A DNA stretch of 44,807 nucleotides, taken from the NCBI GenBank assembly GCA_031286995.1, contig JAITTS010000009.1, positions 1-44,807 of the forward strand, given 5' to 3'. This document shows, piece by piece, positions 13,875 through 42,159 of the stretch. Position numbers and translations under genes: made by a program. The DNA comes from Oscillospiraceae bacterium. Its GTDB lineage: Bacteria > Bacillota > Clostridia > Christensenellales > Aristaeellaceae. The first letter of the stretch is position 1. Every line of letters starts with the position of its first letter. The notes beneath the pieces were generated by a model that saw only the letters and a list, made by a program, of their open reading frames with translations, did not search any database and had not been told where the DNA came from.

Positions 13875-14807
13875 TCATCGCTCGTCGGTCAGCGAAGCCA
13901 GTAAATTCTGTGCCGCCATCATGCCCATGTTTTCCACCGCGCCTTGGGTGGATGCCGCACAGTGCGAACCCATCACCAGGTTATCCAGGGCGTAGAGTGC
14001 CTCGTCCTGGGGCGGTTCCTGGGCAAAGGCATCCATGCCGGCGGCATAAATGGTGTGGTTTTGCAGGGCACGCACCAGGGCGGCTTCGTCCACCAGGCCG
14101 CCGCGGGCGGTGTTGACCAAAATGGCCGTGGGCTTCATGGCCTGAAACTGCGCGTCGGATATCATGTGACGGGATTCGTCGGTTAAAGGCAGGTGCAGCG
14201 AGATAAAGTCGCACGCGGCGTATATCTCTTCCGGCCGGGCGTAGACGATGCCGTTGGCGGCCGCGTAATCCTTATCCCAATAGATGTCGTAGGCCAGCAC
14301 GCGCATGCCAAAGCCCGCAGCCCGGCGGGCCAGGCCCTTGCCGATAGCGCCAAGGCCCAGTATGCCGATGGTCTTGCCCCAGATATCCAGGGTGGTCACC
14401 TTGCCCCAATCCCTGCGGCGGCAAGCCGCGTCGATGGGCACCAACTTGCGGGCGCAGGCGGCCATCAGGGCAAAGGCGTAATCCGCCACCGCATCCGCAT
14501 TGGCCCCGCGGGTGATGCTGACGGGGATATTCAGCTCTTTCGCGCGGGGCATGTCGATGTTATCCACGCCCACGCCATACTTGGATATGGCCCGCAGCTG
14601 CTTTGCCGCGCCCAGCACCCGGGCGGTCATGGGGTCTACGCCCAATATCACACCCACCGCGCCGGCGATATGCTCGCACATCTCGTCCTCTGTCATAATC
14701 CGCCCCAGCGGGTTCTTCACCACGGTGTACCCCGCGCGCTCCAAGAGGCCGATGGGGTCGCCCGCCTGGCCAAAGCTGCGGGGCGTGGCCAATATTTTGC
14801 CCGCCAT
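13875..14807 (-). CDS. D-isomer-specific 2-hydroxyacid dehydrogenase
   Basis: A 310-residue enzyme of the phosphoglycerate/glyoxylate reductase family, interconverting 2-keto and D-2-hydroxy acids with NAD(P). The nucleotide loop GLGAIG is at 151-156. The catalytic residues are present: Arg235 (NTARGG), Glu264 (FAQEPP) and His282 (GSHCA). There is no ACT or regulatory domain, unlike many serine-pathway enzymes. The start is the ATG at 14807; a GTG three bases earlier is also possible. It overlaps the stop of the AroE-like gene, so they are translationally coupled. Presence of this enzyme argues that a 2-keto or 2-hydroxy sugar acid is a pathway intermediate. Confidence 0.9.
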   Translation of the reverse strand: MAGKILATPRSFGQAGDPIGLLERAGYTVVKNPLGRIMTEDEMCEHIAGAVGVILGVDPMTARVLGAAKQLRAISKYGVGVDNIDMPRAKELNIPVSITRGANADAVADYAFALMAACARKLVPIDAACRRRDWGKVTTLDIWGKTIGILGLGAIGKGLARRAAGFGMRVLAYDIYWDKDYAAANGIVYARPEEIYAACDFISLHLPLTDESRHMISDAQFQAMKPTAILVNTARGGLVDEAALVRALQNHTIYAAGMDAFAQEPPQDEALYALDNLVMGSHCAASTQGAVENMGMMAAQNLLASLTDER

Positions 14808-15760
14808 CACTTTTTGCCCCCGATCAGTTCCATGGCGATGTCGCTCATCTGCTGCAGCACCGGGCCTTCGATGGGCACGTTAAACACTTCGGCGATCACT
14901 TGCGTCCAGCCGTGGATGAAGTAAACCCAGCCGTCCTCCACGTGCAGAGATTTCTCCTTGGCCTGCGCCTGGGCCTGGTACATAAAGATGAGATCGCCGC
15001 GGTAGTTAATCTCCCACACCAGGCTGTGCGGAGAATACTGCACGGCATCTGTGGTGGGGCTGCCGGGGGCGTCTTTGCCCAGGCCCGTGGCGTTAACCAC
15101 CAAAGAGTAGGGCGGCAGGCCGGCGATCAGTGCGTCGTTGCCGCTGGGATCCGGCCTGTGCTCAAAGGAGAAAGTCACCTTGGGGTTGAGGCCGGAGAGC
15201 ACCTTTTTGGCGGATTCCAGCCTGGGCAGGCTGCGGTTGGCCAGTATGATGCGCTTGGGCACGTTGTCGCCAAACTTCTCCTGCGTAAAGTAGAGGGACA
15301 TGGCCAGAGAACTGCCGCCCGCGCCGATGAGCAGCACTTCGCCGCCGTGATCCCGCCAGAAGTTTTCAGGCACAAAGTTTTCCAGCGCCAGGCCGCTGGA
15401 GATGGGGTCTTTGGCGTGGGCGTGGAATACCCCGCCGCGTTTGAACAGAGAGGATACCTCGCTCAGCTTCTCGGCATAGGGGTCTACGTAGTCGAACTGA
15501 TCGCGGCAGGCGGTGAATAGGTCGAGCTTGTGGGTGGTGACCAGCGCGCCGTAGGAGAGGGGGTCGCGCTTGATAAAATCCACCACCTGGCGATACTGCT
15601 CGGCGGGCGCGTGCAAGGGCAGATCAAAGCCCTTGATGACCGCATCCTTTAGGCCCAGGGCCTGGGCCCATAGCGGAAACACCTTCATGATGGAGGATTT
15701 GCCTGTGGTGACGCCGATAAAGTAGATGGTGGGCTGGGTTGCGGGTGCAAAATCGAACAT
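14807..15760 (-). CDS. Shikimate-dehydrogenase-like oxidoreductase of unknown substrate
   Basis: A 317-residue protein with the AroE two-domain plan. It keeps the catalytic Lys78 (YGALVTTHK), the partner Asp118 (AKDPISSG), the nucleotide loop GAGGSS at 146-151 and the NATGLG segment. It departs from true AroE in the N-terminal substrate loop: the usual S-x-SPxxHN pattern is replaced by TGKSSIMKVFP at 19-29. It also sits in a sugar operon with no aromatic-pathway genes. Biosynthetic shikimate oxidation is therefore unlikely; a cyclic polyol or sugar-acid substrate is more plausible. A GAGGAG site eight bases ahead of the ATG at 15760 decides the start; the GTG at 15769 is too close to it. Function is inference. 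Confidence 0.8.
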   Translation of the reverse strand: MFDFAPATQPTIYFIGVTTGKSSIMKVFPLWAQALGLKDAVIKGFDLPLHAPAEQYRQVVDFIKRDPLSYGALVTTHKLDLFTACRDQFDYVDPYAEKLSEVSSLFKRGGVFHAHAKDPISSGLALENFVPENFWRDHGGEVLLIGAGGSSLAMSLYFTQEKFGDNVPKRIILANRSLPRLESAKKVLSGLNPKVTFSFEHRPDPSGNDALIAGLPPYSLVVNATGLGKDAPGSPTTDAVQYSPHSLVWEINYRGDLIFMYQAQAQAKEKSLHVEDGWVYFIHGWTQVIAEVFNVPIEGPVLQQMSDIAMELIGGKK

Positions 15761-15765
15761 GCTGG

Positions 15766-16743
15766 TCACTCCTCAATCTGAATCGTCGGTCTCATCTGAA
15801 AAATCCGGGCCGGGTTTTCCACAAAGATCTGGGTTATTTGGGCTTCGGTCACCCCCGCGTCGCGCAGCAAGGGTACAAAATTTTGTAACAGGCCCGCTAA
15901 GCCTGGTGTGCCGCCGTAGCCGGTCAGGCGTAGGCGGGTCACATCCAGCCCGGCCAGCAAGCGGTTGCCGTATCCTGCGCGCAGCATATGGCGGAATATC
16001 TCCGCCTCCCGCGCGTCATCGTGGTACTTGGGCCGGGCGATGGTGTCATACTCCAGGGTGATGCCGCGTTCGCACAGTGCCCTGTGCACGACTAAATCCG
16101 GCGTGGCCCTATCCATATGGCAGAAGACGGCGCGGGTCAGATCCAATCCCTGCCCGGCCAGAAAATCCGCTAGGGCCAGGGGATCGGTCCGGGGCTCTAT
16201 GTGCACCATCAGCGGCGCGCCGGCCGCTATGGCGGCCCCCGCGGCGGCGGCAAAACGCACACCCTGGCGGCCCGTCAGCGGGCCCGGCTCCAGCGCGGCC
16301 TTCACCTGCCCTGCCCGGGCCTCTCCCTGCCGGGCAGGCGGGGCCTCGTCCCCATCCAGGTACATGCCCCGCGTCAGCTCGTCTGTGAACAGGGCCTGCA
16401 ACGCTTGCTGGGGCAGCGTGTGCACCCAGTGGTTATCCGGGTAATGGCGCGGCAGATGAAAGCCCGTAGAGGCCACCACATGCACGCCGGATGCCCGCGA
16501 CAGGCTGACCAGCGCGCGCGCGTCGCGCCCCGCGCCCAGGGGCTGCGCATCCACCAGCGCCTGCCCCCCCGCGCGGCGGTAAGCAAGCAGATCGGTCAGC
16601 GTGCGCTGTTCGTCGTCTATCACCAGGCCGGGGCTGTGCGCGCGCAGGTGCGCACAGGCGGCACTGATGTGCTCGTGGCTTTGGCAGAAGCCCAGCTGCG
16701 CCGGGGGCAGCGGCCCCAGCACCGTTACAATTGCAGCCGTCAT
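15766..16743 (-). CDS. Phosphotriesterase-family hydrolase, probable sugar lactonase
   Basis: A 325-residue amidohydrolase-superfamily protein of the phosphotriesterase group. All binuclear metal ligands are visible: His23 and His25 (SHEHIS), the bridging carbamylated Lys148 (AGQVKAAL), His181 (MVHIEP), His209 (FCHMDR) and Asp267 (AGLDVTR). Characterised members of related groups hydrolyse sugar lactones and phosphorylated sugar lactones. No signal peptide, so it is cytoplasmic. Its ATG overlaps the permease stop (ATGA), and its stop lies just before the AroE-like start, so it is tightly coupled to both. Together with the SMP-30 protein it gives the operon two unrelated lactonase-type enzymes. 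Confidence 0.87.
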   Translation of the reverse strand: MTAAIVTVLGPLPPAQLGFCQSHEHISAACAHLRAHSPGLVIDDEQRTLTDLLAYRRAGGQALVDAQPLGAGRDARALVSLSRASGVHVVASTGFHLPRHYPDNHWVHTLPQQALQALFTDELTRGMYLDGDEAPPARQGEARAGQVKAALEPGPLTGRQGVRFAAAAGAAIAAGAPLMVHIEPRTDPLALADFLAGQGLDLTRAVFCHMDRATPDLVVHRALCERGITLEYDTIARPKYHDDAREAEIFRHMLRAGYGNRLLAGLDVTRLRLTGYGGTPGLAGLLQNFVPLLRDAGVTEAQITQIFVENPARIFQMRPTIQIEE

Positions 16744-17747
16744 TTGACCACCAGCCCACGGGTGGAACGATCTACAGAGATGGCCACGGCCGCCAGCACA
16801 AAGAAGCCGAACACGATGCTTTGCCAGTAAGCATCCACCTTGATAAAGTTCATGCCGTTCTGAATGACCGAGACGGTGAAGGCGCCGACCACCGTGCCCA
16901 GTACGCCGCCGCGGCCACCGGATAGAGATGTACCGCCCAGCGCCACGGATGCCACGATCAGCAGCGTAAAGGGGTCGCCCACCGTGGGGGCGCTGCTGCG
17001 CAGTTTGGCCGCCAAAAAGTAGCCGCCGATGGCCGCGCACACGCCGCTGAGCACAAAAGCGACGATCTTGGCTTGATCCACCCTTGTACCGGCAATTCGC
17101 GCCGCCCGTTCGTTGCCGCCGATGGCGTAGAGCGCCTTGCCGAAGGAGGTGCGGGATTGAAACAGGTAGGCCACGGCCACCCAGGCCAGGGCGAGCACCA
17201 GCGAGAGACCGACAACGCCGAAGGTCACCTTGAACCAGTTGATGCCGCCCCACATCACTTTGGCCACGGATACCGGGGCAGCGGTGATCAGGTACGCCAC
17301 GGATTGCCACAGGGACATAAAGCCCAGCGACGCGATAAAGGAGGGCACCTTTAGCTTTACGTGCACAAAGCCCAGCAGCAGCCCCGCGACCGCGCCAAAG
17401 GCCGCCGCCGCCAGCAGCGCCACCACCGCGCCCAGCGCGGGCGGGCCCAGTTGCGGCCCCAGCTCGTTGATGATCATCACGGTTAGCACGTTGGCCACCG
17501 AGCACACAGAGCCCATGGATAGGTCAATGCTGCCCAGCAGCAGCACCAACGTCATGCCCGTGGCCATGATGAGCAGCGGCGCGCTGTCACTGAGCAGGGT
17601 TTTTAGATTGGCCACGCCTAAAAAGTTGGGGCGCGCCAGCGTGAACCCGACGACCAGGATGACGATGGCGGAGAAACTGAAATACTTGACCAGGTTGTCG
17701 CGCAGGCGCGGGCCTTTCTCCGCGCCGGGTTTGGTCGGTTGGCTCAT
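16740..17747 (-). CDS. Sugar ABC transporter permease (RbsC type)
   Basis: A 335-residue integral membrane protein of the ribose/xylose/galactose permease family. It has about eight to ten hydrophobic segments and the family hallmark LLGSIDLSMGSV near residue 70. The second hallmark, ALGGTSLSGGRGGVLGT, is near residue 265. GGGAGGAAG precedes the ATG. It is the second permease of the operon, 23 bases after the ATPase stop, and would pair with the permease at 19311 as a heterodimer. Its stop overlaps the start of the phosphotriesterase-like gene. Confidence 0.93.
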   Translation of the reverse strand: MSQPTKPGAEKGPRLRDNLVKYFSFSAIVILVVGFTLARPNFLGVANLKTLLSDSAPLLIMATGMTLVLLLGSIDLSMGSVCSVANVLTVMIINELGPQLGPPALGAVVALLAAAAFGAVAGLLLGFVHVKLKVPSFIASLGFMSLWQSVAYLITAAPVSVAKVMWGGINWFKVTFGVVGLSLVLALAWVAVAYLFQSRTSFGKALYAIGGNERAARIAGTRVDQAKIVAFVLSGVCAAIGGYFLAAKLRSSAPTVGDPFTLLIVASVALGGTSLSGGRGGVLGTVVGAFTVSVIQNGMNFIKVDAYWQSIVFGFFVLAAVAISVDRSTRGLVVK

Positions 17748-17770: not shown

Positions 17771-19300
17771 CTACATCATGGCGCTGACCACATCCACCTG
17801 GCTGGGTTTGCCCCGGGCCGGGGCGTCAAACGCCCCGCTCAGCCGCCCATCCTTCATCACCAACACCCGGTTGCTCATGCCGATGCATTCATCCAGCGTA
17901 TCGCCCAGCAGAATGACGGCCTTGCCCTCCTGCATCATGTCGCGGATCAGGCCGTAAAATTCCTCTTTCGCGCCCACATCCACACCCCGGGTGGGGTGGT
18001 TGAGAATGAGGATTTCGCACTTGCTCGCCAGCGCGCGGGAGAACACCACCTTTTGCTGGTTACCACCGGATAGCTGCATCAAAAGCTCCTTGGGGCCGCG
18101 GGTCTTGATGCGCAGGCGACCGATAAGGCGCAGGGCCTGCTCGCGCACGCGGGCGGCCAGCACAAAAGGGCCTTTTGATACCAGCCTGTGGTTGGATGCG
18201 GCGATGTTGTCCTCTACCGAAAGCGTGCGCACAATGCCCTCTACCAGGCGTTCCTTTGGGATCATCAGCACACCCGCCGCCAGCGCCTGGGCAGGGGATT
18301 GAAAATCCGCCTTTTGGCCATGTATGTACAGCGCGCCGGCTGTGGGCTTCTGGTCGCCGCAGAGCACCTCGCACACATCTTCTTTGCCGCTGCCCACCAC
18401 GCCGCATACGCCCAGCACCTCGCCCCGGCGCAGGGCGAAATTGACATCCTTGAACACGCCGGAGAGGCCGAGGCCCTTTGCCTCCAGCACCACCGCATCC
18501 TGCGGCTCAACCTGCCGCTCCAGCTTGTAATATTCACTGGTGGTGCTGCGGCCCACCATCATCTCGTAGAGCAGGGGTTCGGTGGCATCCCCGGTATTCA
18601 GCGAACCAACGCTCGCGCCGTCCTTGTAGACGTAGATGCGATCGGTCACTTCCAATATCTCATCCAGCCGGTGGGATACGAACACCACCGCATGCCCGCA
18701 GGCGGCGATTTTGCGCATCTGCACGAACAGGTTCTCCGTCTCCTCTTCGCTGAGCACGGAGGTGGGCTCGTCGAGCAGGATCATGCACTTGCGGCCATCC
18801 GTGCGCTGGGTCACGTTCATCACCTTGGCGATCTCCACCATCTGCCGGGTGGCAAAGTTGAGGTCGCTCACTTTTTTGCGGGGGTTGATGTGTCCCACAT
18901 CCACCTCCTCCAGCACCCGCTGCGCCTGCTTGTACATGCGGGGCCAGTTGATCACACCGTAGCGGCGAAAATCCCGCTCGTGACCGAAGAAGATGTTCTG
19001 CCCCACGCTGAGGTTGACGATAAGGGATTGCTCCTGAAAAACCATGCCCACGCCGGCCGCGTTGGCCTCCATGGGGTTTTTGGGCGCATAGGGCTGGTCC
19101 TCCATGGTCATCTGGCCGGATGAGGGATTTTCCGCGCCGATGATGATCTTGAGCAGCGTGGATTTGCCCGCGCCGTTCTCGCCCACCAGGCCCACAATTT
19201 CGCCCTCGCGCACCTCTAAATCCACGCCTTTGAGGGCGTGGGTAGCGCCGTAGTGCTTCACGATGCCCTTGGCGCTGAAACAGACTTTGCTCTCTTGCAT
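17771..19300 (-). CDS. Sugar ABC transporter double ATPase with one degenerate site
   Basis: A 509-residue tandem ATPase of the RbsA/MglA/XylG class. NBD1 keeps Walker A (GENGAGKST, 40-48) and Walker B with Asp177-Glu178, but its signature reads LNFAT at 147-151 instead of LSxGQ. NBD2 keeps the signature LSGGN at 410-414, but its Walker A is GVVGSGKED (300-308) and its Walker B reads LILNH (431-435), so the catalytic Asp-Glu is Asn434-His435. The substitutions fall on one composite site: NBD1 Walker motifs with the NBD2 signature stay complete, the reverse site is lost. Degenerate NBD2 Walker A is usual in this class; the NBD1 signature and NBD2 Walker B changes are more extreme. Confidence 0.93.
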   Translation of the reverse strand: MQESKVCFSAKGIVKHYGATHALKGVDLEVREGEIVGLVGENGAGKSTLLKIIIGAENPSSGQMTMEDQPYAPKNPMEANAAGVGMVFQEQSLIVNLSVGQNIFFGHERDFRRYGVINWPRMYKQAQRVLEEVDVGHINPRKKVSDLNFATRQMVEIAKVMNVTQRTDGRKCMILLDEPTSVLSEEETENLFVQMRKIAACGHAVVFVSHRLDEILEVTDRIYVYKDGASVGSLNTGDATEPLLYEMMVGRSTTSEYYKLERQVEPQDAVVLEAKGLGLSGVFKDVNFALRRGEVLGVCGVVGSGKEDVCEVLCGDQKPTAGALYIHGQKADFQSPAQALAAGVLMIPKERLVEGIVRTLSVEDNIAASNHRLVSKGPFVLAARVREQALRLIGRLRIKTRGPKELLMQLSGGNQQKVVFSRALASKCEILILNHPTRGVDVGAKEEFYGLIRDMMQEGKAVILLGDTLDECIGMSNRVLVMKDGRLSGAFDAPARGKPSQVDVVSAMM

Positions 19301-19310
19301 GCGTTTCGCC

Positions 19311-20330
19311 TCACTTGCTGACGACCTTGGCGCCGTGGGCCACTGTCAGCGCCACAGCGGTCAGGATGATCAGGCCTTCAATGCCGGTTTTGATGTAGGA
19401 ATTGACGCCCACGAGCAGCAGCCCGTTGGCCAGCACGGTCATGATCAGCACGCCCACAATGGTGTTGGTGACGCCGCCCTTGCCGCCGGAAAGGGATGTG
19501 CCGCCCACCACCACTGCGGCCTGGGCAGGGAACATCAGGTCATTGCCCGCCGTCACGTCGCCTTGCCCCAGGCGTATGCCGTAGAGCACCCCCGCGATGC
19601 CGAAGCACAGGCCCGCCAGGGTAAAGACCATCACCTTCACCCGATTGACACTGACACCCACCGCGCGCAGAATGGTCTCATCCGTGCCCACGGCATAAAT
19701 GTAACGGCCGAAGGCCGTGTACTCCTGGATGAAGATGCACACCAGCAACACCGCAACGGCCACCCAGGTGATGAAGGGGATGCCCAGCCAGTAGGTCTTG
19801 GGTAGCGCCACGAGCAGCGGGTCTATGATCTTGGGCGGCTGCCCCGCGTAGGAGAGCAGGCCCAGACCCTTGCACACGTACATAAAGGCGAAGGATACCA
19901 TAAAGGAAGGGATTTTGAGATACACGTGGATCAGGCCGACTGCCAGGCCCACCAGCACGCTGCCCAGCACAGCCAGCAGCACCCCCAGGAAGCCCAGGTT
20001 CAGGGGGAACCGGTTGTTCATCACCAGCACGCCCACCAGCGCGGCGGCCATGCCCACAGTGCCGTTGATGGAGAGGTCGATGCCGCCGATCATGATCACG
20101 AACGTCAGGCCCAGGGCTACCAGCAACGGGATGGCAAGCTGGTTCAAAATGGCCACCATGTTCGTGAATGAGGCAAAGGCCGCGCCGCGGGCCGCCGTAA
20201 AGATGAGCACCAAGGCCAGCAGCACAATCATGGGCGCGTAGCGCATGACGCGCTCCCTCTGGCCATCCCGCCGCACCTTGGCCGCAAATTCTTCCGCAAT
20301 GGTCATGGGGGTGGGTTGTTTTGCCGCCAT
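19311..20330 (-). CDS. Sugar ABC transporter permease (RbsC type)
   Basis: A 339-residue permease of the ribose/xylose family with multiple membrane segments. It carries the family signatures FVIMIGGIDLSINGTVG near 85 and VVGGTSLSGGKGGVTNT near 280. The start at 20330 has TGGAGCGAG just upstream; a longer frame begins inside the upstream hairpin and has no ribosome site. It lies ahead of the ATPase gene with a ten-base gap and would form the channel with the permease at 16740. A transcription-attenuating hairpin separates it from the binding-protein gene. Confidence 0.92.
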   Translation of the reverse strand: MAAKQPTPMTIAEEFAAKVRRDGQRERVMRYAPMIVLLALVLIFTAARGAAFASFTNMVAILNQLAIPLLVALGLTFVIMIGGIDLSINGTVGMAAALVGVLVMNNRFPLNLGFLGVLLAVLGSVLVGLAVGLIHVYLKIPSFMVSFAFMYVCKGLGLLSYAGQPPKIIDPLLVALPKTYWLGIPFITWVAVAVLLVCIFIQEYTAFGRYIYAVGTDETILRAVGVSVNRVKVMVFTLAGLCFGIAGVLYGIRLGQGDVTAGNDLMFPAQAAVVVGGTSLSGGKGGVTNTIVGVLIMTVLANGLLLVGVNSYIKTGIEGLIILTAVALTVAHGAKVVSK

Positions 20331-20369
20331 AATCTCGCTCCATTCTGTGGGGGATGTGCGGGGCTTCAT

Positions 20370-20450: not shown

Positions 20451-21539
20451 TCAGTCCGCCTTGCAGGCGAAGGGCTTGGAGAAATCGAACTCCGGCACGC
20501 TGCTGAGGTATTCCGCAGCGTTCTCCTTGGTGATGAGCAGCGCAGGGGTCGCGAACTCGCGATACTCAGGCGGCAACGTCGTCACATCAATCAGGCCGGC
20601 CCAGGCCGCATAGCAGATGGCCAGGGTGTAGCCGCCCTGCAGATACCCGTTGCTGGAGACCGTGGCCACGGCGAACCCATCGCGCACAGCCTCCACGATG
20701 TCGGTGTTGGCATCCACGCCGGTCACGCCCACTTTGCCCTTTAGCCCCGCTTTTTCAAGCGCCTGCAGCGCGCCGGTGGCCATGTTGTCGTTGGCGCACC
20801 ACACGCCGCCCACGTCGGGATCCTTGCCCAGCCAGGTCTCCACCAGGGTCAAGGCCTCGGCCGTCGCCCAGTTGCCGGTGTCGCGACCGGCTACCGTGAT
20901 ATCGGGATACTCCGCCAGCGCCTGATCCAGACCCTTGGCGCGGTCGATGGCGGCGGTGTTGCCCAGCATGCCCTCGCACACAAAAATCTTGCCCTTGCCG
21001 CCCATGTAATCAAACAGCGCCTTGGCGGTGTTGTAGCCGTTGATCACATTATCCGGAGAGGTGTGGATGACCCAGTTGGGGGTCAGATCCGCCGGGCCCA
21101 CGTCAGCCGGCTTGTTCCACGCGGTGCCGATGAAGCCGCCCGCCTCGGCCATGGCCTCGGCCAGGGAGTAGGCGATGGCGTTCTCGTTGGGGTCGGAATA
21201 GGCCAGCGCGTTGCCCCCCGCGTTGGCGGCGAACTGACGCATGTTGTCCACTTCTTTGTTGCTGTCTCCGCCGGAATCAAGCACCTGCATCTCGTACTTT
21301 TGGCCGATGCTGTCCAGGTACACGGCGAACATCTCCATGCCGACTTTGATGGTGGCGATGTAGGGGTTCTCCAGGCCGCGGACAGAGACCGCCAGGGATA
21401 CCACCGTGTCCAGCTTCTCCTGAGGGATCTTCGCGGGGTCGATGGTGAAGTCCTTGAGTTCCTCAGCCAAAGCCAAGGTGCCCCCCCCCACCATGGCCAG
21501 CGCCAGTACCAGCGCCAGCAGAACCTTGATGCGCTTCAT
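20451..21539 (-). CDS. Sugar ABC transporter substrate-binding protein
   Basis: A 362-residue binding protein of the ribose-binding type (periplasmic-binding domain 4). It has a signal peptide at 1-24 (MKRIKVLLALVLALAMVGGG) ending in ALA, with no lipobox cysteine. The two-lobe fold shows VSLAVSVRGLENPY near 44 and the GVTGVDANTDIVEAV hinge region near 260. AGGAGGAAATT sets the ATG at 21539. It is the first gene of the 13-gene operon, behind a consensus promoter. The class binds monosaccharides, polyols or similar small carbohydrates; the ligand is not predictable here. How it stays near the membrane without a lipid anchor is an open point. Confidence 0.93.
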   Translation of the reverse strand: MKRIKVLLALVLALAMVGGGTLALAEELKDFTIDPAKIPQEKLDTVVSLAVSVRGLENPYIATIKVGMEMFAVYLDSIGQKYEMQVLDSGGDSNKEVDNMRQFAANAGGNALAYSDPNENAIAYSLAEAMAEAGGFIGTAWNKPADVGPADLTPNWVIHTSPDNVINGYNTAKALFDYMGGKGKIFVCEGMLGNTAAIDRAKGLDQALAEYPDITVAGRDTGNWATAEALTLVETWLGKDPDVGGVWCANDNMATGALQALEKAGLKGKVGVTGVDANTDIVEAVRDGFAVATVSSNGYLQGGYTLAICYAAWAGLIDVTTLPPEYREFATPALLITKENAAEYLSSVPEFDFSKPFACKAD

Positions 21540-21573
21540 GGGCAATTTCCTCCTCCATTTTCTCAATGCCATT

Positions 21574-21790: not shown

Positions 21791-22165
21791 ATGATATCGC
21801 AGTATCTCGTGGGCCTGCAGCACATCGGCATCCCCACGCACGATGTGGGCGCCACCGTGGCCTTTTACAAGAGCCTGGGCTTTGAGGAGACTTGGCAGAG
21901 CGAAAGGGATCACGTGGCTTTTTTGAAGCTGGGCAGCCTGGTGGTGGAAACCTACCTGGGCGAGACCCATCCCGTGGCCGGGGCCATCGACCACCTGACC
22001 ATTGACGTGACGGATATCCACAGGGTATTTGATGAGGTGAAAGCCGCGGGCTACAAACTGATAGACCCCGCCATCATCACGCTGCCCTTCTTCAGCAAGG
22101 GATGCAGCTACTTCATGATAGAGGGGCCCAACAAGGAAAGGGTGGAGTTTAACCAGATTCTCTAA
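21791..22165 (+). CDS. VOC-superfamily (glyoxalase-like) metal enzyme
   Basis: A 124-residue vicinal-oxygen-chelate protein with two beta-alpha-beta-beta-beta modules. Four metal ligands are recognisable: His in LQHIGIPT, Glu in VVETY, His in IDHLTID and Glu in RVEFNQ. This set is typical of glyoxalase I and methylmalonyl-CoA epimerase, which act through enediolate intermediates. The second ATG at 21791 is preferred because AGGAG is nine bases ahead of it and only three from the first. It is divergent from the carbohydrate operon and convergent with the DeoR gene, whose stop it overlaps. A role as isomerase, epimerase or detoxifier of a reactive keto product is plausible. Confidence 0.85.
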   Translation: MISQYLVGLQHIGIPTHDVGATVAFYKSLGFEETWQSERDHVAFLKLGSLVVETYLGETHPVAGAIDHLTIDVTDIHRVFDEVKAAGYKLIDPAIITLPFFSKGCSYFMIEGPNKERVEFNQIL

Positions 22166-22944
22166 ACCACCCGCAGGCTCAGCCCGCCTTCCCGAATCGC
22201 GTCGGCCATTTTGCCGGGCACGCCGCTGTCGGTCACCAGCATGTCCACATCCCGCGGGTCGGCAAACTTCAAAAAGCTGGCGCGGCCCAGTTTGCCGCTA
22301 TCCACCAGGGCCACGCTGCGGTTGGCGATAGCGATGAGCGCCTGCTTCACCTCCACCAGTTCGCTCTTGGGCGTGGTGAACCCCTTCTCCATAGAGAAGG
22401 CGTTCGCCCCGAGGAAGGCGATATCCACATTCAGGCTGCGTATGGCCGATACGGTCATGGCGCCGGTGGCCATGTTAAAGCCTTTGCGGAGTTGGCCGCC
22501 CGCCAGGTACACCGCGGCGTCGCTGCGGGCATCCAGGTAGGTGGCAATCTCCACATCGTATGTCACCACGGTGAGGCCCTTGCGCTCGCACAGGGCGCGG
22601 GCCAGTTCCATGGTGGTGCTGCCCGCATCCAGCGCCACGGTGTCCCCCTCTTCCACCAGGGTGGCGGCGAACTTGGCGATGCGTTGCTTTTCGGTGAGGT
22701 GGTGCCCCTGCTTGATCTGCGGCGTGGGTTCAAAGCCCGCCTTAAAGAGCGTCATGGCCCCGCCGTGGGTGCGGTGCAGGCGCCCGGATCGCGCCAGGGC
22801 GCGCAGATCGCTGCGGATGGTGGCGGCTGATACGCCGAAACGCTGGCACAGCTCGGCCACGCGCAGGTTGGCCTGTGCATCCAGCAGGGCAAGAATGCGC
22901 TCTCGGCGCCCCTCGGTAAAGAGTGTGCGCTCGGGGGGTTGCAT
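22162..22944 (-). CDS. DeoR/GlpR-family transcriptional regulator
   Basis: A 260-residue regulator. The N-terminal helix-turn-helix is at about 12-65 (RRERILALLDAQ, ELCQRFGVSAATIRSDL, HRTHGGA). A DeoR C-terminal sensor follows (VALDAGSTTMELA, VDIAFLGANAFS, VDSGKLG), a fold related to sugar-phosphate isomerases that usually senses a phosphorylated sugar. The ATG at 22944 is chosen because AGAGGGGTGA precedes it. It stands between the VOC gene and the divergent Gfo/Idh-kinase-dehydrogenase genes and probably controls those. The kinase product would be a natural effector; this is inference. Confidence 0.9.
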   Translation of the reverse strand: MQPPERTLFTEGRRERILALLDAQANLRVAELCQRFGVSAATIRSDLRALARSGRLHRTHGGAMTLFKAGFEPTPQIKQGHHLTEKQRIAKFAATLVEEGDTVALDAGSTTMELARALCERKGLTVVTYDVEIATYLDARSDAAVYLAGGQLRKGFNMATGAMTVSAIRSLNVDIAFLGANAFSMEKGFTTPKSELVEVKQALIAIANRSVALVDSGKLGRASFLKFADPRDVDMLVTDSGVPGKMADAIREGGLSLRVV

Positions 22945-22987
22945 GGGTTCACCCCTCTTCATCAACACATATCGGATGGATGATTTT

Positions 22988-23016
22988 ATTATAGCTGACC
23001 CGGCTGTCCCTGTAAA
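22988..23016 (-). promoter_or_regulatory. Sigma-A promoter of the DeoR gene
   Basis: TTTACA and TATAAT, 17 bases apart on the minus strand, about 45 bases ahead of the regulator start. I found no convincing plus-strand promoter for the divergent Gfo/Idh gene in the same 150 bases. Confidence 0.75.
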
Positions 23017-23094
23017 GCACCGCGTGCCGCGCGGCGGCCGGGAGGGGGAAGGGACACCCGTGGCCCCCAAGCCTGGCAGAAAGGAACAACGCAC

Positions 23095-24114
23095 ATGAGC
23101 AACAACACACACGGCATCTGCCTGGTGGGCGCGGGCCGCGCGGGCATGATCCACGCGCGCAACTTTCAGAGCCGGGTGCCCGGCTTTGCCGTGGTATCCG
23201 TGGTAGACCCGGTGGAGGAGGCCGCAGCGACCGCCTGCCGCGAGCTGGGCATTGACAAGCGTTTCGCGGATTATAGACAGGCCTTCGACGACCCCTCGGT
23301 GCGCGGGGTGGTGGTGGTGTCGCCCACCAAGTATCACCGCGAGATTGTGCTGGCCGCTGCGGCGGCGGGCAAACACGTGCTGTGCGAAAAGCCCATGGCC
23401 ATGGATGAGGCCGAGTGCCGGGATATGATAGCGGCCTGCGAGGCCGCCCGCGTCACCCTGCAAATTGGCTTTATGCGCCGCTACGACGCGGGCTTTTTGG
23501 CCGCCAAAGAGGCGGTGGATGCCGGGCAGATCGGCGAGGTGGTGCTGGTCAAATCCCTCACGCGCGGGCCCAGTACGCCCCAGCCGTGGATGTACGACAT
23601 CCGCAAGAGCAACGGCCCGCTGGCCGAGGTGAACAGCCACGACATCGACACCGTGCACTGGTTTACCGGCAGCGCCTTTGAGCAGGTGTACGCCGTGGCG
23701 GGCAACTACCGCTGCCCCCAGGCCCGGCAGGATTATCCGGATTTTTACGACAATGTGGTGCTCACGGGCCGCCTGCAAAACGGTATGCAGGGCGCCATTG
23801 ACGGCGCGCAGGGCGTGGGCTACGGCTACGACGCCAGGGTAGAGATACTGGGCACAGATGGGGTCATCTACCTGGGTGACACCAGTCAGACCAGCATGCG
23901 CTACGCCAACCGATCCGGCAACCAGGTGCAGCCCTTCATCAAGAGCTGGACGGGGCTTTTCGCCCAGGCCTATGTGGAGGAGGACAGGCACTTCGCCGCC
24001 TGCGTGCTGGGAGAGGCCGCCCCGCGCGTGACCGGGCAGGATGGCCTGAACGCGGTGCGCGTGGTGGCGGCGGGCAACCGCGCCATTGCGGAAAAGCGGA
24101 TTGTGACGCTGTAG
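23095..24114 (+). CDS. Gfo/Idh/MocA-family dehydrogenase (inositol-dehydrogenase-like)
   Basis: A 339-residue NAD(P)-dependent sugar or cyclitol dehydrogenase. The nucleotide loop VGAGRAGMIH is at 11-20, the EKP motif with catalytic Lys99 at 98-100, and the HDIDTVHW active-site segment at 182-189. The overall pattern is closest to myo-inositol 2-dehydrogenase-type enzymes, though related members act on many pyranoses and their 3-keto forms. AAAGGAA precedes the ATG. It starts a three-gene plus-strand unit with an FGGY kinase and a zinc dehydrogenase. It adds a further oxidation step to the pathway. Confidence 0.9.
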   Translation: MSNNTHGICLVGAGRAGMIHARNFQSRVPGFAVVSVVDPVEEAAATACRELGIDKRFADYRQAFDDPSVRGVVVVSPTKYHREIVLAAAAAGKHVLCEKPMAMDEAECRDMIAACEAARVTLQIGFMRRYDAGFLAAKEAVDAGQIGEVVLVKSLTRGPSTPQPWMYDIRKSNGPLAEVNSHDIDTVHWFTGSAFEQVYAVAGNYRCPQARQDYPDFYDNVVLTGRLQNGMQGAIDGAQGVGYGYDARVEILGTDGVIYLGDTSQTSMRYANRSGNQVQPFIKSWTGLFAQAYVEEDRHFAACVLGEAAPRVTGQDGLNAVRVVAAGNRAIAEKRIVTL

Positions 24115-24166
24115 GGCGCAGCCTGCCACCCATCCGTCCTGCTACCCAAACGAGGAGGCGAAGCAC

Positions 24167-25672
24167 ATGAAACCCACCATCCTTGCCATGGATATCGGCA
24201 CCCAGGGTACCAAGACCGCCGTCTTTGACGCGGATATGAACCTGCTGGCCACGGCCTTTGAGGCATCCCGCCTTATCCAGCCCAGCCCGGGCGCCGTGTG
24301 GCAGGAGGCGGAGGATCTGTACGGCGCGGCGGTGCGCACCATACGGGGCGCGCTGGCCCAGCCGGGCATAGACCCGGCGGCCGTTGCGGCCATCGGCGTG
24401 GATTCGCAGATGGCGGGCATTATGGGCGTGGATGAGGCGGGGCAGGCCGTCACCTACTACGATTCCTGGCTGGATGCGCGCTGCGCCCCCTACATGAAGC
24501 GGATGCGCGAGCGAGCGGGCGGGCGCGTCACGGCCATCACCGGCGGCCCGGTCACCTACACCCACGGCCCCAAAATTTTGTGGTGGAAGCACGAGCACCC
24601 GGATGTGTACAGGCGCATCGCCAAGTTCGTGCTGCCCCACGGCTACGTGGTGGGGCGCATGGCGGGCCTGCGGGGGGATGAGGCGTACTTTGACTACACC
24701 TGCCTGCAATACTCCGGCTTTGGCGACAACCTGCGCAAAGCCTGGTCGCAGGAGTTGCTGGATACCTTTGACGTGCCCCGCGAAAAATTCGCCCGCGTCG
24801 TCTCCCCGTTTGAAGTGGTGGGCCGTGTCACCCCGGCCTTTGCCAAGGAGACCGGCTTGCCCGATGGCATCCCCATTGTAGCGGGCGGCGGGGATACGGC
24901 CTGCTCCATCTTCGGAAGCGGCTTGTTCGAGGCGGATCTGCTCTTTGATATCGCGGGCACGGCATCGGTGATGTGCAGCGTGGTGGATAGCTTTGTGCCG
25001 GATACGGCGTTTGAGACCATGACCATGATGCGCTCACCGGTGGATGGGTACTGGTTTCCCCTGGCCTACATCAACGGCGGCGGGCTGTGCCTCAAGTGGC
25101 TGCGCGACCAGGTGACGCACAGCAGTTACGAGGCGCTCTCCGCCCCCTGCGCGGATATTCCGCCGGGCAGCGACGGGCTGATGTTCGTGCCCCATTTTGC
25201 AGGGCGCGTGCTGCCCAACAACCCGGATGTAAAGGGCAGCTACATGGGCCTGAATTGGAAGCACACGGATGCGCACCTCTTTAAGGCCGCCATGGAGGGC
25301 GTGGCCTACGAGTACCACTACTACCTCAGCGTCATGCGCAGGCTGTACCCGCACAGCAATTTCGATACCCTGCGCGCAGCGGGGGGCGGGGCAACATCTT
25401 CCCTGTTCAACCAGATCAAGGCCGATGTGCTGGGGGTGCGCGTGGTGCCCTTTGTGATGAGCGAGGCGGGCCTGGCAGGCAGCGCGGCCATCGCGGGGGC
25501 GGGCGCGGGGGTACTGAGCGACTACCGCGCGCCCATCCGCAGGCTGATGCAGGGCGGCGAGCCCCTGAAGCCGGATGCCGCGCGCCACCGCGCCTACCAG
25601 CCCTTTGCCGCCGCGTACTTAAAGACCATCGAAGCCTTGACGCCGCTGTACCGGGATGTGCTGCCCAAGTAG
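24167..25672 (+). CDS. FGGY-family carbohydrate kinase
   Basis: A 501-residue FGGY kinase. The ATP motif MDIGTQGTK is at 8-16, the substrate block YDSWLDAR at 98-105, and the catalytic base is expected at Asp243 in AGGGDTA. RAAGGGATS near 405 matches the adenosine motif. GAGGAGGCG precedes the ATG, 52 bases after the Gfo/Idh stop. It differs clearly from the kinase at 9356: the substrate block and the region after residue 120 do not correspond closely. The likely product is a phosphorylated sugar or polyol that may act as the DeoR effector. Confidence 0.91.
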   Translation: MKPTILAMDIGTQGTKTAVFDADMNLLATAFEASRLIQPSPGAVWQEAEDLYGAAVRTIRGALAQPGIDPAAVAAIGVDSQMAGIMGVDEAGQAVTYYDSWLDARCAPYMKRMRERAGGRVTAITGGPVTYTHGPKILWWKHEHPDVYRRIAKFVLPHGYVVGRMAGLRGDEAYFDYTCLQYSGFGDNLRKAWSQELLDTFDVPREKFARVVSPFEVVGRVTPAFAKETGLPDGIPIVAGGGDTACSIFGSGLFEADLLFDIAGTASVMCSVVDSFVPDTAFETMTMMRSPVDGYWFPLAYINGGGLCLKWLRDQVTHSSYEALSAPCADIPPGSDGLMFVPHFAGRVLPNNPDVKGSYMGLNWKHTDAHLFKAAMEGVAYEYHYYLSVMRRLYPHSNFDTLRAAGGGATSSLFNQIKADVLGVRVVPFVMSEAGLAGSAAIAGAGAGVLSDYRAPIRRLMQGGEPLKPDAARHRAYQPFAAAYLKTIEALTPLYRDVLPK

Positions 25673-25721
25673 GGGGGCCGCCCGCCTCATCAATCGACAA
25701 AAAAGGAGAAGCAAACAAGCT

Positions 25722-26759
25722 ATGCTGGCAGCCAGAATGTACGGTATCAACGATCTGCGCGTAGAGCAGGTTCCCACCCCTATTCCCGGGCCGGGGGAAG
25801 CCTTGCTACAGGTGAAAGCCGCGGCCATCTGCGGCACGGATGTGCGCATGCTGACCGCGGGCGCGGCCGGGGTGGATGCGAAGCATCCCATCATCTTGGG
25901 GCACGAGTTCGCGGGCGTTATTGCCTCCGTGGGGCCGGGCGTCACCGCCGCCGCACCGGGCGACCGGGTGGCGGTGGCCCCCAACATGGGCTGCGGGCAC
26001 TGCGATCTGTGCGTATCCGGCAACGGCCAGCTGTGCGCGGACTACCGCGCCTTAGGCGTTAACCTGGACGGGGGCTTTGCCGAGTATGTGCTGATCCCGG
26101 CGCAGGCGGTATCCGGCGGCAACATCACCCCGCTGGGGACCGGCAGCTTTGTGGATGGCGCGCTCAACGAGCCCTTTTCCTGCGCGCTGAACGGATCGGA
26201 GCGCTGTGCCATACGGCCCGGCGACTTTGTACTGATCGTGGGCGCGGGGGCCATCGGCCTGATGCACGCCAAGCTGGCCCGCCTGCAGGGCGCCAGCCGC
26301 GTGGTGCTCAGCGACCTTTCTGCGGATCGCCAGGCCAATGCCCGCAAGGTAGATGCATCTTTCACCACCGTGGGCGCGCTGGATGCGCAAAAAGTGGCGG
26401 ACCTGACAGAGGGGCATCTGTTCGATGTGGTGATCACCGCCTGCCCTGCCCCCGCGGCCCAGCAAGCCAGTTTTAGCCAGGCGGCGGTGAACGGGCGCGT
26501 GTGCTTCTTTGGCGGCCTGCCCAAAGGGCGGGAGGAAGTGATGCTGAACACCAACATCATTCATTACAAGCAGCTCATCGTCACGGGCACAACCCGCGCC
26601 AGCTTGACCCAGTATCGCAAGACCCTGCGCTTTATCTGCGAAAAGGCGCTCTCTATGGAGGATTTGGTGACCAGCCGCGCGCCCCTGACGGATATTGCGG
26701 AGCTCTTCGAATTGGCCAAGGCGGCCAAAGGGCTCAAAAACGTGGTAGAATTTGCTTAA
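25722..26759 (+). CDS. Zinc-dependent medium-chain dehydrogenase
   Basis: A 345-residue sorbitol/threonine dehydrogenase-type enzyme. Catalytic zinc ligands are Cys37 (AICGTD), His61 and Glu62 (GHEFAG). Structural-zinc cysteines are at 91, 94, 97 and 105 (GCGHCDLC). The nucleotide loop GAGAIG is at 174-179. The start at 25722 is taken because AAAGGAGA precedes it and earlier in-frame sequence runs into the kinase gene. It is the last gene of the three-gene unit and is followed directly by a strong terminator. It is the third zinc dehydrogenase of the locus. Confidence 0.9.
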   Translation: MLAARMYGINDLRVEQVPTPIPGPGEALLQVKAAAICGTDVRMLTAGAAGVDAKHPIILGHEFAGVIASVGPGVTAAAPGDRVAVAPNMGCGHCDLCVSGNGQLCADYRALGVNLDGGFAEYVLIPAQAVSGGNITPLGTGSFVDGALNEPFSCALNGSERCAIRPGDFVLIVGAGAIGLMHAKLARLQGASRVVLSDLSADRQANARKVDASFTTVGALDAQKVADLTEGHLFDVVITACPAPAAQQASFSQAAVNGRVCFFGGLPKGREEVMLNTNIIHYKQLIVTGTTRASLTQYRKTLRFICEKALSMEDLVTSRAPLTDIAELFELAKAAKGLKNVVEFA

Positions 26760-38717: not shown

Positions 38718-40322
38718 GTGAAGACGTGGTTGAAAGTACTCCTGATTGTATTGGGCGCGGCGGCCCTGGTTGTGCTGGGTATCAGTCTGCTTGTGCCGCC
38801 CCGCGCCGTTACGGTGGATGCGTTGGGGCTGGATGCCGCCGCCGTGCAGCGGGGCAACATCCAGGTGACCGTGCACGGCACCGGCATGCTGGAGGTGGAC
38901 GAAGTACGGGATGTTTACGCCCAGGCGACAGGCCGCGTGGCCGAGGTATATAAAGAAGAAGGTGACACCGTGCAGGCTGGGGAGTTGCTGGCGCTGTTGC
39001 AGAGCGAAACGCTTGAGGACACGCTGCGCAGCACAAGCGACGACCTGTACGTAAAGGATCTAGAGCTGGCCACCACCCGGCAGGGCCGTGCCGTCACCGC
39101 CATCCGCGCCACCATGGCTGGGCGGGTCAAGCTGTTAAACGCCCGCAAGGGCGACGATATGAACACCGTACAGAAGCAATACGGCGCCTTGGCTGTATTA
39201 TCCACGGATGGTCGCATGCGGGTAGAGTTGCCCGCCCCCGCGGATTGGGCCAGCCTGGAGGTACCCCAAACCGTCAAAGTCAGCATCGGCAGCCAGGTAG
39301 AGAGCGGAACCCTGCTCAGCGCTGACGACAAGTTGCTGACCGTGCTGATACAAAACGATACCTATACCCCCGGCGAGCGCGCCATCGTGCGCAGCGAGGC
39401 CGGGGCAGAGATGGGCAACGCGCCCCTGATCATCAACAAGCCGCTGCTGATCAACGGCGTATCCGGCAAGATACGCAGCGTGAATGTGGATGAAAACGAC
39501 AAAGTGCGCGCGCAGGATAGGCTTTTTACCCTGGAAGACGACGCGGTTTCGCTGGATGTGGAAAAACAGCTGCTGGCGCGCGACGCGTTGCAGCGCAAGT
39601 TGGACGATACCCGCAAAGATATTGCGGAACTGGAGATACGCTCCCCCATCACCGGGGTGTTGGCAGCCATCAGCCCCAAGGTGGGGGCCACTGTGCAGGA
39701 TGGGACGCAGGTGGCCACCGTGATACAAACCGACCGCGCCAAGGTGCGCCTGGCTGTGGATGAACTGGATGTGGCCGCCGTGTACCCCGGCCAGAACGCC
39801 ACGCTGAAGATAGACGCCATACCCGGCAAGCGCTATGAGACCACGGTGGATAGGGTGCTGCCCGTGGGCGAGCGCGCCAACGACATCACCAGCTACAATG
39901 TGCTGATGTACCTGGATGCGCGGGACAACATGCTGCCCTATATGTCCCTGGCCGGGGATATCGTGGTGGCCACGGCGGATAACGCGCTGCTGGTACCGGT
40001 GGCGGCCCTGCAAACCGTGGGTGATGACAAGTACGTGATGCTCATGCCCACGGATGCCGACTTGGTGGGCTACAACGCCAACATGCGCCGGCCGGCCAAC
40101 CGCATGATGACGATGGCCGGCGCGAGCCAGAACGACGACGTGGCCGCTCTGCAGGCCATCGCGCCGCAATTGATGCGCCGGGTAGAGGTGGGCCTGATAT
40201 CCAGCGAATACGCGCAGATTGTCTCCGGGCTGAACGAAGGAGAGCGCGTGGTGCTGCCGCGCAGCACATCCAACCTGTTCACCATGATGGGCGGCATGCG
40301 CCCAGGGGGCGCGCTGCAATGA
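38718..40322 (+). CDS. Membrane-fusion adaptor of a MacAB-like exporter
   Basis: A 534-residue adaptor with one N-terminal membrane anchor (about 5-27). Four half-barrel-sandwich (lipoyl-like) motifs are visible instead of the usual two: about 70-95, 132-165, 248-275 and 310-340. Short helical hairpins lie between them (about 95-120 and 278-305), and a beta-barrel domain follows from 340. The C-terminus holds a methionine-rich tail (MRRPANRMMTM, MMGGMRPGG). It begins at a GTG behind AGAGGGATG and overlaps the ATPase start by four bases. With the next two genes it forms an export pump for a lipid, peptide or antibiotic. Confidence 0.87.
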   Translation: MKTWLKVLLIVLGAAALVVLGISLLVPPRAVTVDALGLDAAAVQRGNIQVTVHGTGMLEVDEVRDVYAQATGRVAEVYKEEGDTVQAGELLALLQSETLEDTLRSTSDDLYVKDLELATTRQGRAVTAIRATMAGRVKLLNARKGDDMNTVQKQYGALAVLSTDGRMRVELPAPADWASLEVPQTVKVSIGSQVESGTLLSADDKLLTVLIQNDTYTPGERAIVRSEAGAEMGNAPLIINKPLLINGVSGKIRSVNVDENDKVRAQDRLFTLEDDAVSLDVEKQLLARDALQRKLDDTRKDIAELEIRSPITGVLAAISPKVGATVQDGTQVATVIQTDRAKVRLAVDELDVAAVYPGQNATLKIDAIPGKRYETTVDRVLPVGERANDITSYNVLMYLDARDNMLPYMSLAGDIVVATADNALLVPVAALQTVGDDKYVMLMPTDADLVGYNANMRRPANRMMTMAGASQNDDVAALQAIAPQLMRRVEVGLISSEYAQIVSGLNEGERVVLPRSTSNLFTMMGGMRPGGALQ

Positions 40323-40993
40323 TAGAGCTGGAGAACGTGTGCAAGCGTTATCAGATGGGCGGCGAGGTGGTGACGGCGCTGGATCACGTCACCTTGGCTA
40401 TCGCCGACCGCGAGTACGTGGCCATTATCGGCCCCTCGGGCAGCGGCAAATCCACGCTGATGAATATTATCGGTTGTTTGGATAACGCGGATGAGGGCGC
40501 ATACAGGTTGGATGGGCAGGATATTACCCGCTACACGCCCCGCCAGCTGGCCGCCATACGCAACCGCAAGGTGGGCTTCATTTTTCAGCAGTTTAATCTG
40601 CTGCAAAAGCTGACCGCCTACGAAAATGTGGAACTACCTTTGATTTACCAAGGCCTGGGCAGCGCGGAACGCCGCGCGCGGGTCAGTGAGGCGCTGGCCA
40701 GGGTGGGGCTGGACGACCGCATGCGCCACCGGCCCAACCAGCTTTCCGGCGGGCAGCAGCAGCGCGTGGCCATCGCCCGGGCGCTGGTGACGCAGCCATC
40801 CCTCATCCTGGCCGACGAGCCCACAGGCAACCTGGATTCTAAGACCAGCGTGGAGATCATGGCCATGCTGGATGCCCTGCACCAGGCGGGCAACAGCATC
40901 GTGGTGATCACCCATGACCAGGGCGTGGCCGAGCGCGCGCCGCGCCGGGTGCGCATACATGACGGATGCCTGACAGAGGAGGTGGGCGCGTGA
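40319..40993 (+). CDS. ABC exporter ATPase (MacB/LolD type)
   Basis: A 224-residue ATPase. Walker [10 protein letters not shown] is at about 39-47, the signature [15 protein letters not shown] at about 141, Walker [13 protein letters not shown] at about 162, and the H-loop VVITHD near 200. This is the form used by MacB- and LolD-type systems. It overlaps the adaptor gene by four bases and the permease start by four bases, so all three proteins should be made together. Confidence 0.95.
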
Positions 40994-42159
40994 GCTTGGC
41001 GCAATCCTTCAAGATGGCCTGGGCGGCCATCAGTTCGAATAAGATGCGATCCTTTTTGACGGTGCTGGGGGTCATCATCGGCATCATCGCGGTGGTGGTG
41101 CTCACATCCCTGGGGCAGAGCGCTATGGATCAGGTGACCGGCCAGATACAGGATTTGGGCACCAACATGCTCGTCGTATCGGTCAACACAACCCGCCGCA
41201 CCGACATTACCACAGATTTGCTGCACGCCTTGGTGGGGCGCGACGGTATATCCGCCGTATCCCCCCAGGCATCCGGCCGCATGACGGCTAAGGCAGGCAC
41301 CGAATCCTTCGCGTGCAGTGTAGAGGGGGTAGAGCCGGCTTTCTTCGCCATCCGCAAGCTGAGCGTGGCCCAGGGGCGCGCTCTGAACGCTGCGGATGAG
41401 GAAAACCGATCCCCCGTGGCGGTGATCGGTGTGGAGGTGGCCGATAAACTCTTTGGCAACCGCAACGTGCTGGGCAACACGCTCAGCGTGGCCGGGCACG
41501 AGTTGACCATTGTGGGCCTGCTGGAGGAGCAAGGCACCAGCATGATGGGCTCGGAAGATGCCCGCATCATGCTGCCCTTTGCCCTGGCACAGCGAGTGCT
41601 CAAGCAAAAAGATATAGGCGTCTTTTTCGTCTCCACGGAATCCGAGGCCGTCATCCCGCAGGCGGAGCAATCCCTGCACCGCTTTATGCAGGCCCGCACC
41701 ACCGATGCGGAGGATTACGACCTGCTCAACCAATCCAGCATTCTGGATTTGTTCGACCAGTTTACATCCACCTTCACCATGTTGCTGTCGGGCATTGCGG
41801 GCATCGCGCTGCTGGTGGGCGGCATCAGCATCATGAACATCATGCTGGTTTCCGTTACCGAGCGCACGCGGGAAATCGGCATCCGCAAGGCCATCGGGGC
41901 CCAGCGCAGCGCCATTTTGATGCAGTTTTTGATAGAGGCCGTGGTGCTCTCTCTCTCCGGCGGGTTGCTGGGTGTGCTGGTATCCTGGCTGATTTTGACA
42001 GGCCTGCGCGGCCCCTTGGCCATGCCCCAGCTCAGCGTGTCATTGGGCAGCCTGCAACTGGCGCTCAGCTTCTCCACGGCCATTGGCGTGCTGTTTGGCA
42101 TTTACCCGGCAAACAAGGCCAGCCTGCTCAAGCCCATAGACGCACTGCGGTACGAATAA
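40990..42159 (+). CDS. MacB/FtsX-type ABC exporter permease
   Basis: A 389-residue permease. One membrane helix near 20-45 (FLTVLGVIIGIIAVVVLTSL) is followed by a large extracellular MacB-core domain (about 50-260). Three helices of the FtsX domain follow, with MNIMLVSVTERTREIGIRKA at about 290-310. GAGGAGGTGG and the GTGA overlap support the GTG at 40990. Such permeases act by mechanotransmission together with an adaptor, driving export across the envelope. Confidence 0.93.
   Translation: MSLAQSFKMAWAAISSNKMRSFLTVLGVIIGIIAVVVLTSLGQSAMDQVTGQIQDLGTNMLVVSVNTTRRTDITTDLLHALVGRDGISAVSPQASGRMTAKAGTESFACSVEGVEPAFFAIRKLSVAQGRALNAADEENRSPVAVIGVEVADKLFGNRNVLGNTLSVAGHELTIVGLLEEQGTSMMGSEDARIMLPFALAQRVLKQKDIGVFFVSTESEAVIPQAEQSLHRFMQARTTDAEDYDLLNQSSILDLFDQFTSTFTMLLSGIAGIALLVGGISIMNIMLVSVTERTREIGIRKAIGAQRSAILMQFLIEAVVLSLSGGLLGVLVSWLILTGLRGPLAMPQLSVSLGSLQLALSFSTAIGVLFGIYPANKASLLKPIDALRYE

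Follow-up and report, generated by a model that had tools for sequence, protein, structure and literature searches.

Site asymmetry in a fused two-NBD ABC ATPase of an Oscillospiraceae importer and across its family

The importer locus

The window analysed here, a stretch of 44,807 nucleotides from an Oscillospiraceae bacterium (contig JAITTS010000009.1), carries on its minus strand four adjoining importer genes in the order binding protein, permease 1, ATPase and permease 2 (Table 1). The ATPase gene is one open frame, with its ends where they had first been read, and its chain of about 500 residues holds two ABC_tran domains. A BPD_transp_2 permease and a sugar-type binding protein adjoin it, so that both the fused architecture and the operon setting are those of RbsA/XylG-type ATPases. 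Its top NCBIfam matches were AraG, XylG and RbsA, every one under the curated cut-off (AraG 415.6 bits versus 689; RbsA 394.7 versus 745), and none of the named equivalogs (AraG, XylG, RbsA, YtfR, MglA, LsrA) reached its cut-off; the ATPase is thus of the AraG/XylG/RbsA kind but is none of these named transporters.

Permease 2 is followed on the same strand by a phosphotriesterase/lactonase-like gene, an AroE-like gene, a 2-hydroxyacid dehydrogenase and a GntR regulator, and further along by a zinc alcohol dehydrogenase, a gluconolactonase-like gene and an FGGY sugar kinase. That the importer takes up a sugar, polyol or sugar lactone is a fair guess and no more. Homologues of the AroE-like protein occur at two loci of the ATPase clade described below (L034, L251). 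A second sugar-type cluster adjoins the importer: its plus strand carries a Gfo/Idh/MocA oxidoreductase, an FGGY kinase and a zinc dehydrogenase, its minus strand a DeoR-type regulator. The window also contains a MacB-like export set. Searches for tRNA and Rfam matches across the window returned none.

Table 1 Features of the importer locus, ATP-site motifs of the ATPase (sites 1 and 2 as defined in the text; counts are out of the 199 surveyed ATPases) and neighbouring genes.
Feature	Positions	Strand	Evidence or state
Substrate-binding protein	20451..21572	-	PF13407 Peripla_BP_4
Permease 1 (BPD_transp_2)	19311..20369	-	PF02653; own lineage, separate from permease 2
Fused two-NBD ABC ATPase, RbsA/XylG kind, 509 aa	17771..19300	-	ORF and two PF00005 (ABC_tran) stretches
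NBD1 Walker A GENGAGKST, residues 40-48	19157..19183	-	Intact, site 1; Lys46 199/199
NBD1 signature LNFATRQ, residues 147-153	18842..18862	-	Lost, site 2
NBD1 Walker B Asp177-Glu178	18767..18772	-	Intact, site 1; 199/199
NBD1 D-loop Ser184 instead of Asp	18749..18751	-	Site 2; Asp in 3/199
NBD1 switch His210	18671..18673	-	Intact, site 1; 199/199
NBD2 Walker A GVVGSGKEDV, residues 300-309	18374..18403	-	Retains Lys306; Glu307 in place of Ser/Thr; site 2
NBD2 signature LSGGNQQ, residues 410-416	18053..18073	-	Intact, site 1; SGG 199/199
NBD2 Walker B Asn434-His435 instead of Asp-Glu	17996..18001	-	Site 2
NBD2 switch position Asp467 instead of His	17900..17902	-	Site 2; His in 0/199
Permease 2 (BPD_transp_2)	16740..17747	-	PF02653; 29% identity to permease 1
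AroE-like protein	14807..15769	-	No Pfam match at 1e-3; weak NCBIfam shikimate dehydrogenase matches
Second sugar-type cluster	22162..26759	both
DeoR-type regulator of second cluster (ORF)	22162..24129	-
MacB-like export set	38718..42159	+	Overlapping frames; HlyD-type protein included
ABC ATPase of export set	40319..40993	+
MacB/FtsX permease of export set	40966..42159	+

One complete and one degenerate composite site

By aligning NBD1 with NBD2 of the window protein (27% identity), and following the established facing-residue geometry of NBD dimers, we placed nine elements for each of two composite sites: site 1, made of the Walker A, Q-loop, Walker B and switch His of NBD1 with the signature and D-loop of NBD2, and site 2, its mirror set. 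Site 1 keeps all nine scored elements and site 2 keeps Lys306 alone (9/9 versus 1/9), so that one site is complete and the other is without catalytic residues. The sequence-only reading had described a lost NBD1 signature, the loss of both NBD2 Walker B acids and a poor NBD2 Walker A, all mapping to one composite site with the other intact. Residues 147-151 indeed read LNFAT (consensus LSGGQ, departing at Asn148 and Ala150), both Walker B acids of NBD2 are replaced as described, and the alignment assigns every loss to the same site. The description of Walker A as poor holds in part: the Ser/Thr is missing, but the Lys, found in just 29 of the 199 ATPases surveyed below, is present. The extent of the loss had been understated, as the Q-loop position of NBD2 is Lys349 rather than Gln and the switch His and the D-loop Asp of site 2 are also gone (Table 1).

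A reading in which both sites hydrolyse ATP, with His435 as an unusual general base, would fit the presence of Lys306 and the conservation of His435 among relatives; we give it hardly any credence, as the Walker B Asp, switch His, Q-loop Gln, D-loop Asp and signature Gly of site 2 are missing as well.

Site asymmetry across the family

Relatives were gathered from genomes (80 loci in one set) and plasmids, and 199 full-length ATPases in 196 loci were scored for the same elements. All nine elements of site 1 were found in 198 of the 199 and eight in the remaining one, a result that the choice of survey rows by their similarity to the window protein may favour, while site 2 had six of nine elements at most in any ATPase. 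Eight residues of site 1 were invariant (Lys46, Gln89, Asp177, Glu178, His210, Ser411, Gly412 and Gly413; 199/199) and Asp441 was present in 198. Site 2 counts, out of the same 199, were 0 for the switch His, 1 for the Q-loop Gln, 3 for the D-loop Asp, 29 for the Walker A Lys, 92 for the signature Gly, 119 for the Walker B Glu and 141 for the Walker B Asp. Twelve full-length ATPases of RbsA/XylG kind from the window's own genome were surveyed, and among them the window protein scored joint lowest (1/9). In a class-wide sampling of 391 genomes only the window's own genome matched at the sampling's limit; a sampling of 200 genomes on the Burkholderiales side gave no match at its limit and, containing no known positive at that limit, shows nothing.

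Since 198 of 199 ATPases have a full site 1 and none exceeds 6/9 at site 2, the lopsidedness belongs to the whole family. The view of these changes as special to the window protein is not supported: site 2 is degenerate family-wide, down to a switch His that no ATPase retains. Judged by its motifs, the RbsA family is built with one intact and one poor site, and the window protein is at the far end of a family gradient in site-2 degeneracy. A single hydrolytic site in the window ATPase, as had been proposed, is well supported by sequence, and the family-wide conservation of site 1 versus site 2 argues for it more strongly than one protein could. The survey shows a lopsided ATPase to be normal for a common family of bacterial sugar importers.

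Probable pairing of both halves and a proposed single-site mechanism

An AlphaFold2 model of the window protein had both NBDs well folded (mean pLDDT 87.4), but their position relative to each other was uncertain (pTM 0.55). Both halves matched single NBDs (LptB, Z ~27), and the model aligned with 8wd9_D, the twin-NBD chain of M. tuberculosis DppABCD, at a Z of 27.0 and an rmsd of 6.5 over 469 residues. Two sequence searches found no RbsA-type chain among solved structures, within the best 60 of 559 and the best 60 of 198 matches. Among the 199 ATPases, the invariant Walker motifs lie in NBD1 only and the invariant signature in NBD2 only, and this split supports, independently of any model, the pairing of both halves in one composite site. 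The low inter-domain confidence of the model would also suit a transporter with two ATPase chains, in which NBD1 pairs with NBD1 and NBD2 with NBD2. For NBD1 to pair with NBD1, however, its signature would have to be good, and the Gly of that signature is missing from 107/199 while the SGG of NBD2 is invariant; a study of B. subtilis importers also has a single RbsA chain in its modelled complex (PMC11466899). We regard the two-chain arrangement as very improbable.

Very probably, on what the motifs and gene order suggest, the window protein is the ATPase of a sugar-type importer that works by single-site hydrolysis, its non-hydrolysing site 2 having been eroded step by step almost to the end. 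In such an importer, built from the binding protein, permease 1, the ATPase and permease 2, the two NBDs of one chain would pair head-to-tail, and site 1, with the NBD1 Walker A, Q-loop, Walker B and switch His facing the NBD2 LSGGQ and D-loop, would hydrolyse ATP. Site 2 is predicted to be unable to do so and, by analogy with other degenerate-site transporters, would most likely serve as a non-hydrolysing hinge or hub, at which ATP may be held without turnover or may not be held.

Signature and Walker B losses in relatives

The signature and Walker B changes had been read as co-ordinated, and homologues in which the two occur apart had been named as the finding that would count against this. 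We compared the two losses on an unrooted tree of 84 of 142 rows, with trait columns masked and near-identical rows and three outgroup rows left out, and on a tree of 137 rows, obtained by dropping 5 permease-less rows and then 34 of 171 rows at ≥75% identity to a kept row. On the 84-row tree 62 rows have no signature Gly, 21 of them with both Walker B acids kept, and ten further rows keep the Gly with one or both acids gone; on the 137-row tree 31 rows keep the Gly without both acids. Relatives thus separate the two changes (21/84 and 31/137), and for the family co-ordination of the losses is not supported. Independent pairs for loss of the Glu versus loss of the signature numbered 2 (84-row tree) and 3 (137-row tree) on supported branches, and the reverse direction gave 7 pairs on the 137-row tree, ~1 of them informative; these are too few to reach 0.05, so that linkage is shown neither way.

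Descent and probable order of the changes

The window protein falls in a clade of 47 of the 84 tree rows (SH-aLRT 100), in which His replaces the catalytic Glu at position 435 in 40 rows. Its own branch of 13 rows (support 100), with named members from the Bacillota, has Asn-His in 12 rows and Asp-His in L115; a second His group of 26 rows (support 99), with named members from the Proteobacteria, is Asp-His throughout, as is L132, the remaining His row. The signature Gly is gone in 39 of the 40 His rows, the exception being L125 (a Paraburkholderia caribensis plasmid), which has LSFGQ with Asp-His. Within the clade both losses therefore coincide in 39/40 rows, which may reflect a single descent. 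The other seven clade rows have Glu, Asp or Asn at position 435, and six of them have LSFGQ or LTFGE with a Walker A GK[ST]. At all 20 clade loci tested, a binding-protein homologue and both permeases were present.

A sister group (L039, L040, L041, L048, L148 and L155) has a less eroded second site and a single permease, with Walker A GK[ST], signature LSFGQ or LTFGE, and Walker B Asp-Asp or Asp-Glu. One of its rows (LSFGQ, GSGKS and Asp-Glu, as in L048) reaches 6/9 site-2 elements. The second site of this group could be what is left of a better one, or it could have recovered in part.

In the nearest subclade, 13 sequences (the window protein, L031-L038 and L111-L114) have Asn-His, 11 of them with LNFAT, whereas L115, the fourteenth, carries Asp-His and LSFAM. 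The motif filter yielded no frame for L133 and L157, which are absent from the motif comparison. Because sequences of this subclade, from separate genomes, share Asn-His and mostly LNFAT, sequencing or assembly error is excluded. L115 (Asp) stands beside L113 (Asn) with support 100, so the residue at 434 has changed more than once between Asp and Asn. On this unrooted tree we infer an order in which the change from Glu to His is the most widely shared, signature changes are repeated, and the change from Asp to Asn is confined to the protein's own branch.

Such repeated change at 434, and the wide variation of site-2 positions across the family, would fit neutral decay, in which a functionless site 2 drifts freely and site 1 alone works. 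We consider this explanation improbable: the clade has conserved the substituted residues (His435 in 40/47 rows, LNFAT in 11/13 of the nearest sequences), and free drift would not keep them. The sequence-only reading had likewise held that the changes do not look like random decay, which the conservation of His435 above all, and of the other substituted residues, bears out, although not by way of co-ordination. Stepwise erosion towards a non-hydrolysing site 2 remains our preferred reading.

Permease number and loss of the second Glu

Permeases were counted for the 176 ATPases with both flanks resolved, after 23 of the 199 with unresolved flanks were dropped. Where the NBD2 Glu is lost, that is, neither Glu nor Asp is present (69 loci), 66 loci have two permeases, 2 have one and 1 has none; where Glu or Asp is kept (107 loci), 84 have one, 19 have two and 4 have none. 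All 23 Asp-His loci have two permeases by HMM-bounded gene ends. Within the clade, His goes with the order permease-ATPase-permease in 24/24 rows, and its absence with a single permease in 7/7. The clade permeases separate cleanly by position, the upstream and the downstream ones each forming a lineage (34 and 34 sequences, FastTree support 0.996), and the two permeases of one clade operon share 27-39% identity.

On the 137-row tree at least 5 changes are required for loss of the Glu and at least 8 for the two-permease state. A Fisher test of the link gave a p of 3e-27, which ignores shared descent and is no valid test; with just 2 and 3 independent pairs on supported branches, significance cannot be reached. 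Exceptions are L241 (in the window genome) and L261, with Glu replaced by Asn and one permease, L233, with the Glu lost and no permease found, and the 19 Glu- or Asp-keeping loci with two permeases. As most cases come from two clades, we treat this as a correlation to follow and not as a result: a new lead, with too few independent origins to test. One possible but doubtful explanation is that, among importers with fused NBDs, loss of the second Glu accompanies a switch of the operon from one permease, forming a homodimer, to two different ones, a one-sided engine being matched to a two-sided channel in which each NBD serves a permease of its own. If the link is true, these importers would offer a natural series, from less to fully eroded second sites, for the role of a non-hydrolysing site. 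Neither the permease link nor the Glu-to-His clade appeared in any title or abstract opening of the literature searched, a body from which subscription journals are mostly absent.

Relation to known transporters

The E. coli ribose transporter has reportedly been studied by experiment. RbsA, XylG, AraG and MglA share with the window protein the fused architecture, the intact site 1 and a site 2 without the switch His; rows on their side that keep the NBD2 Glu or Asp mostly have one permease nearby (84/107), whereas the window protein has two and scores below the NCBIfam cut-offs. In the 2024 study of B. subtilis (PMC11466899), one site is described as degenerate in both RbsA and NupO: the signature deviates and the second Walker A is without the Lys, and NupO also lacks both acids of its second Walker B. 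NupO, of the guanosine importer NupNOPQ, is thus like the window ATPase a fused two-NBD protein with two different permeases, missing Walker B acids and one degenerate site (PMC11466899). Rows that we judged NupO-like from motifs and gene order differ in keeping the NBD1 signature Gly (31/31), which the window protein has lost, and are mostly arranged ATPase-permease-permease, whereas the window ATPase lies between its permeases and has His for Glu. Against this background the window protein is a new and extreme yet expected example, a finding that is real but mostly ordinary.

Among exporters with degenerate sites, Pdr5, TAP and MRP1 are covered in a review (PMC7756269), according to which all motifs of one Pdr5 site are altered and restoring all four abolishes transport. 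Pdr5 resembles the window protein in that one site's motifs are all changed (Pdr5 signature LNVEQ) and the Walker B Glu is replaced (PMC7756269). Unlike the window protein, Pdr5-type exporters combine their membrane domains and NBDs in a single chain and have the degenerate site on NBD1; Pdr5 is a parallel case, akin to the window protein through the NBD fold only.
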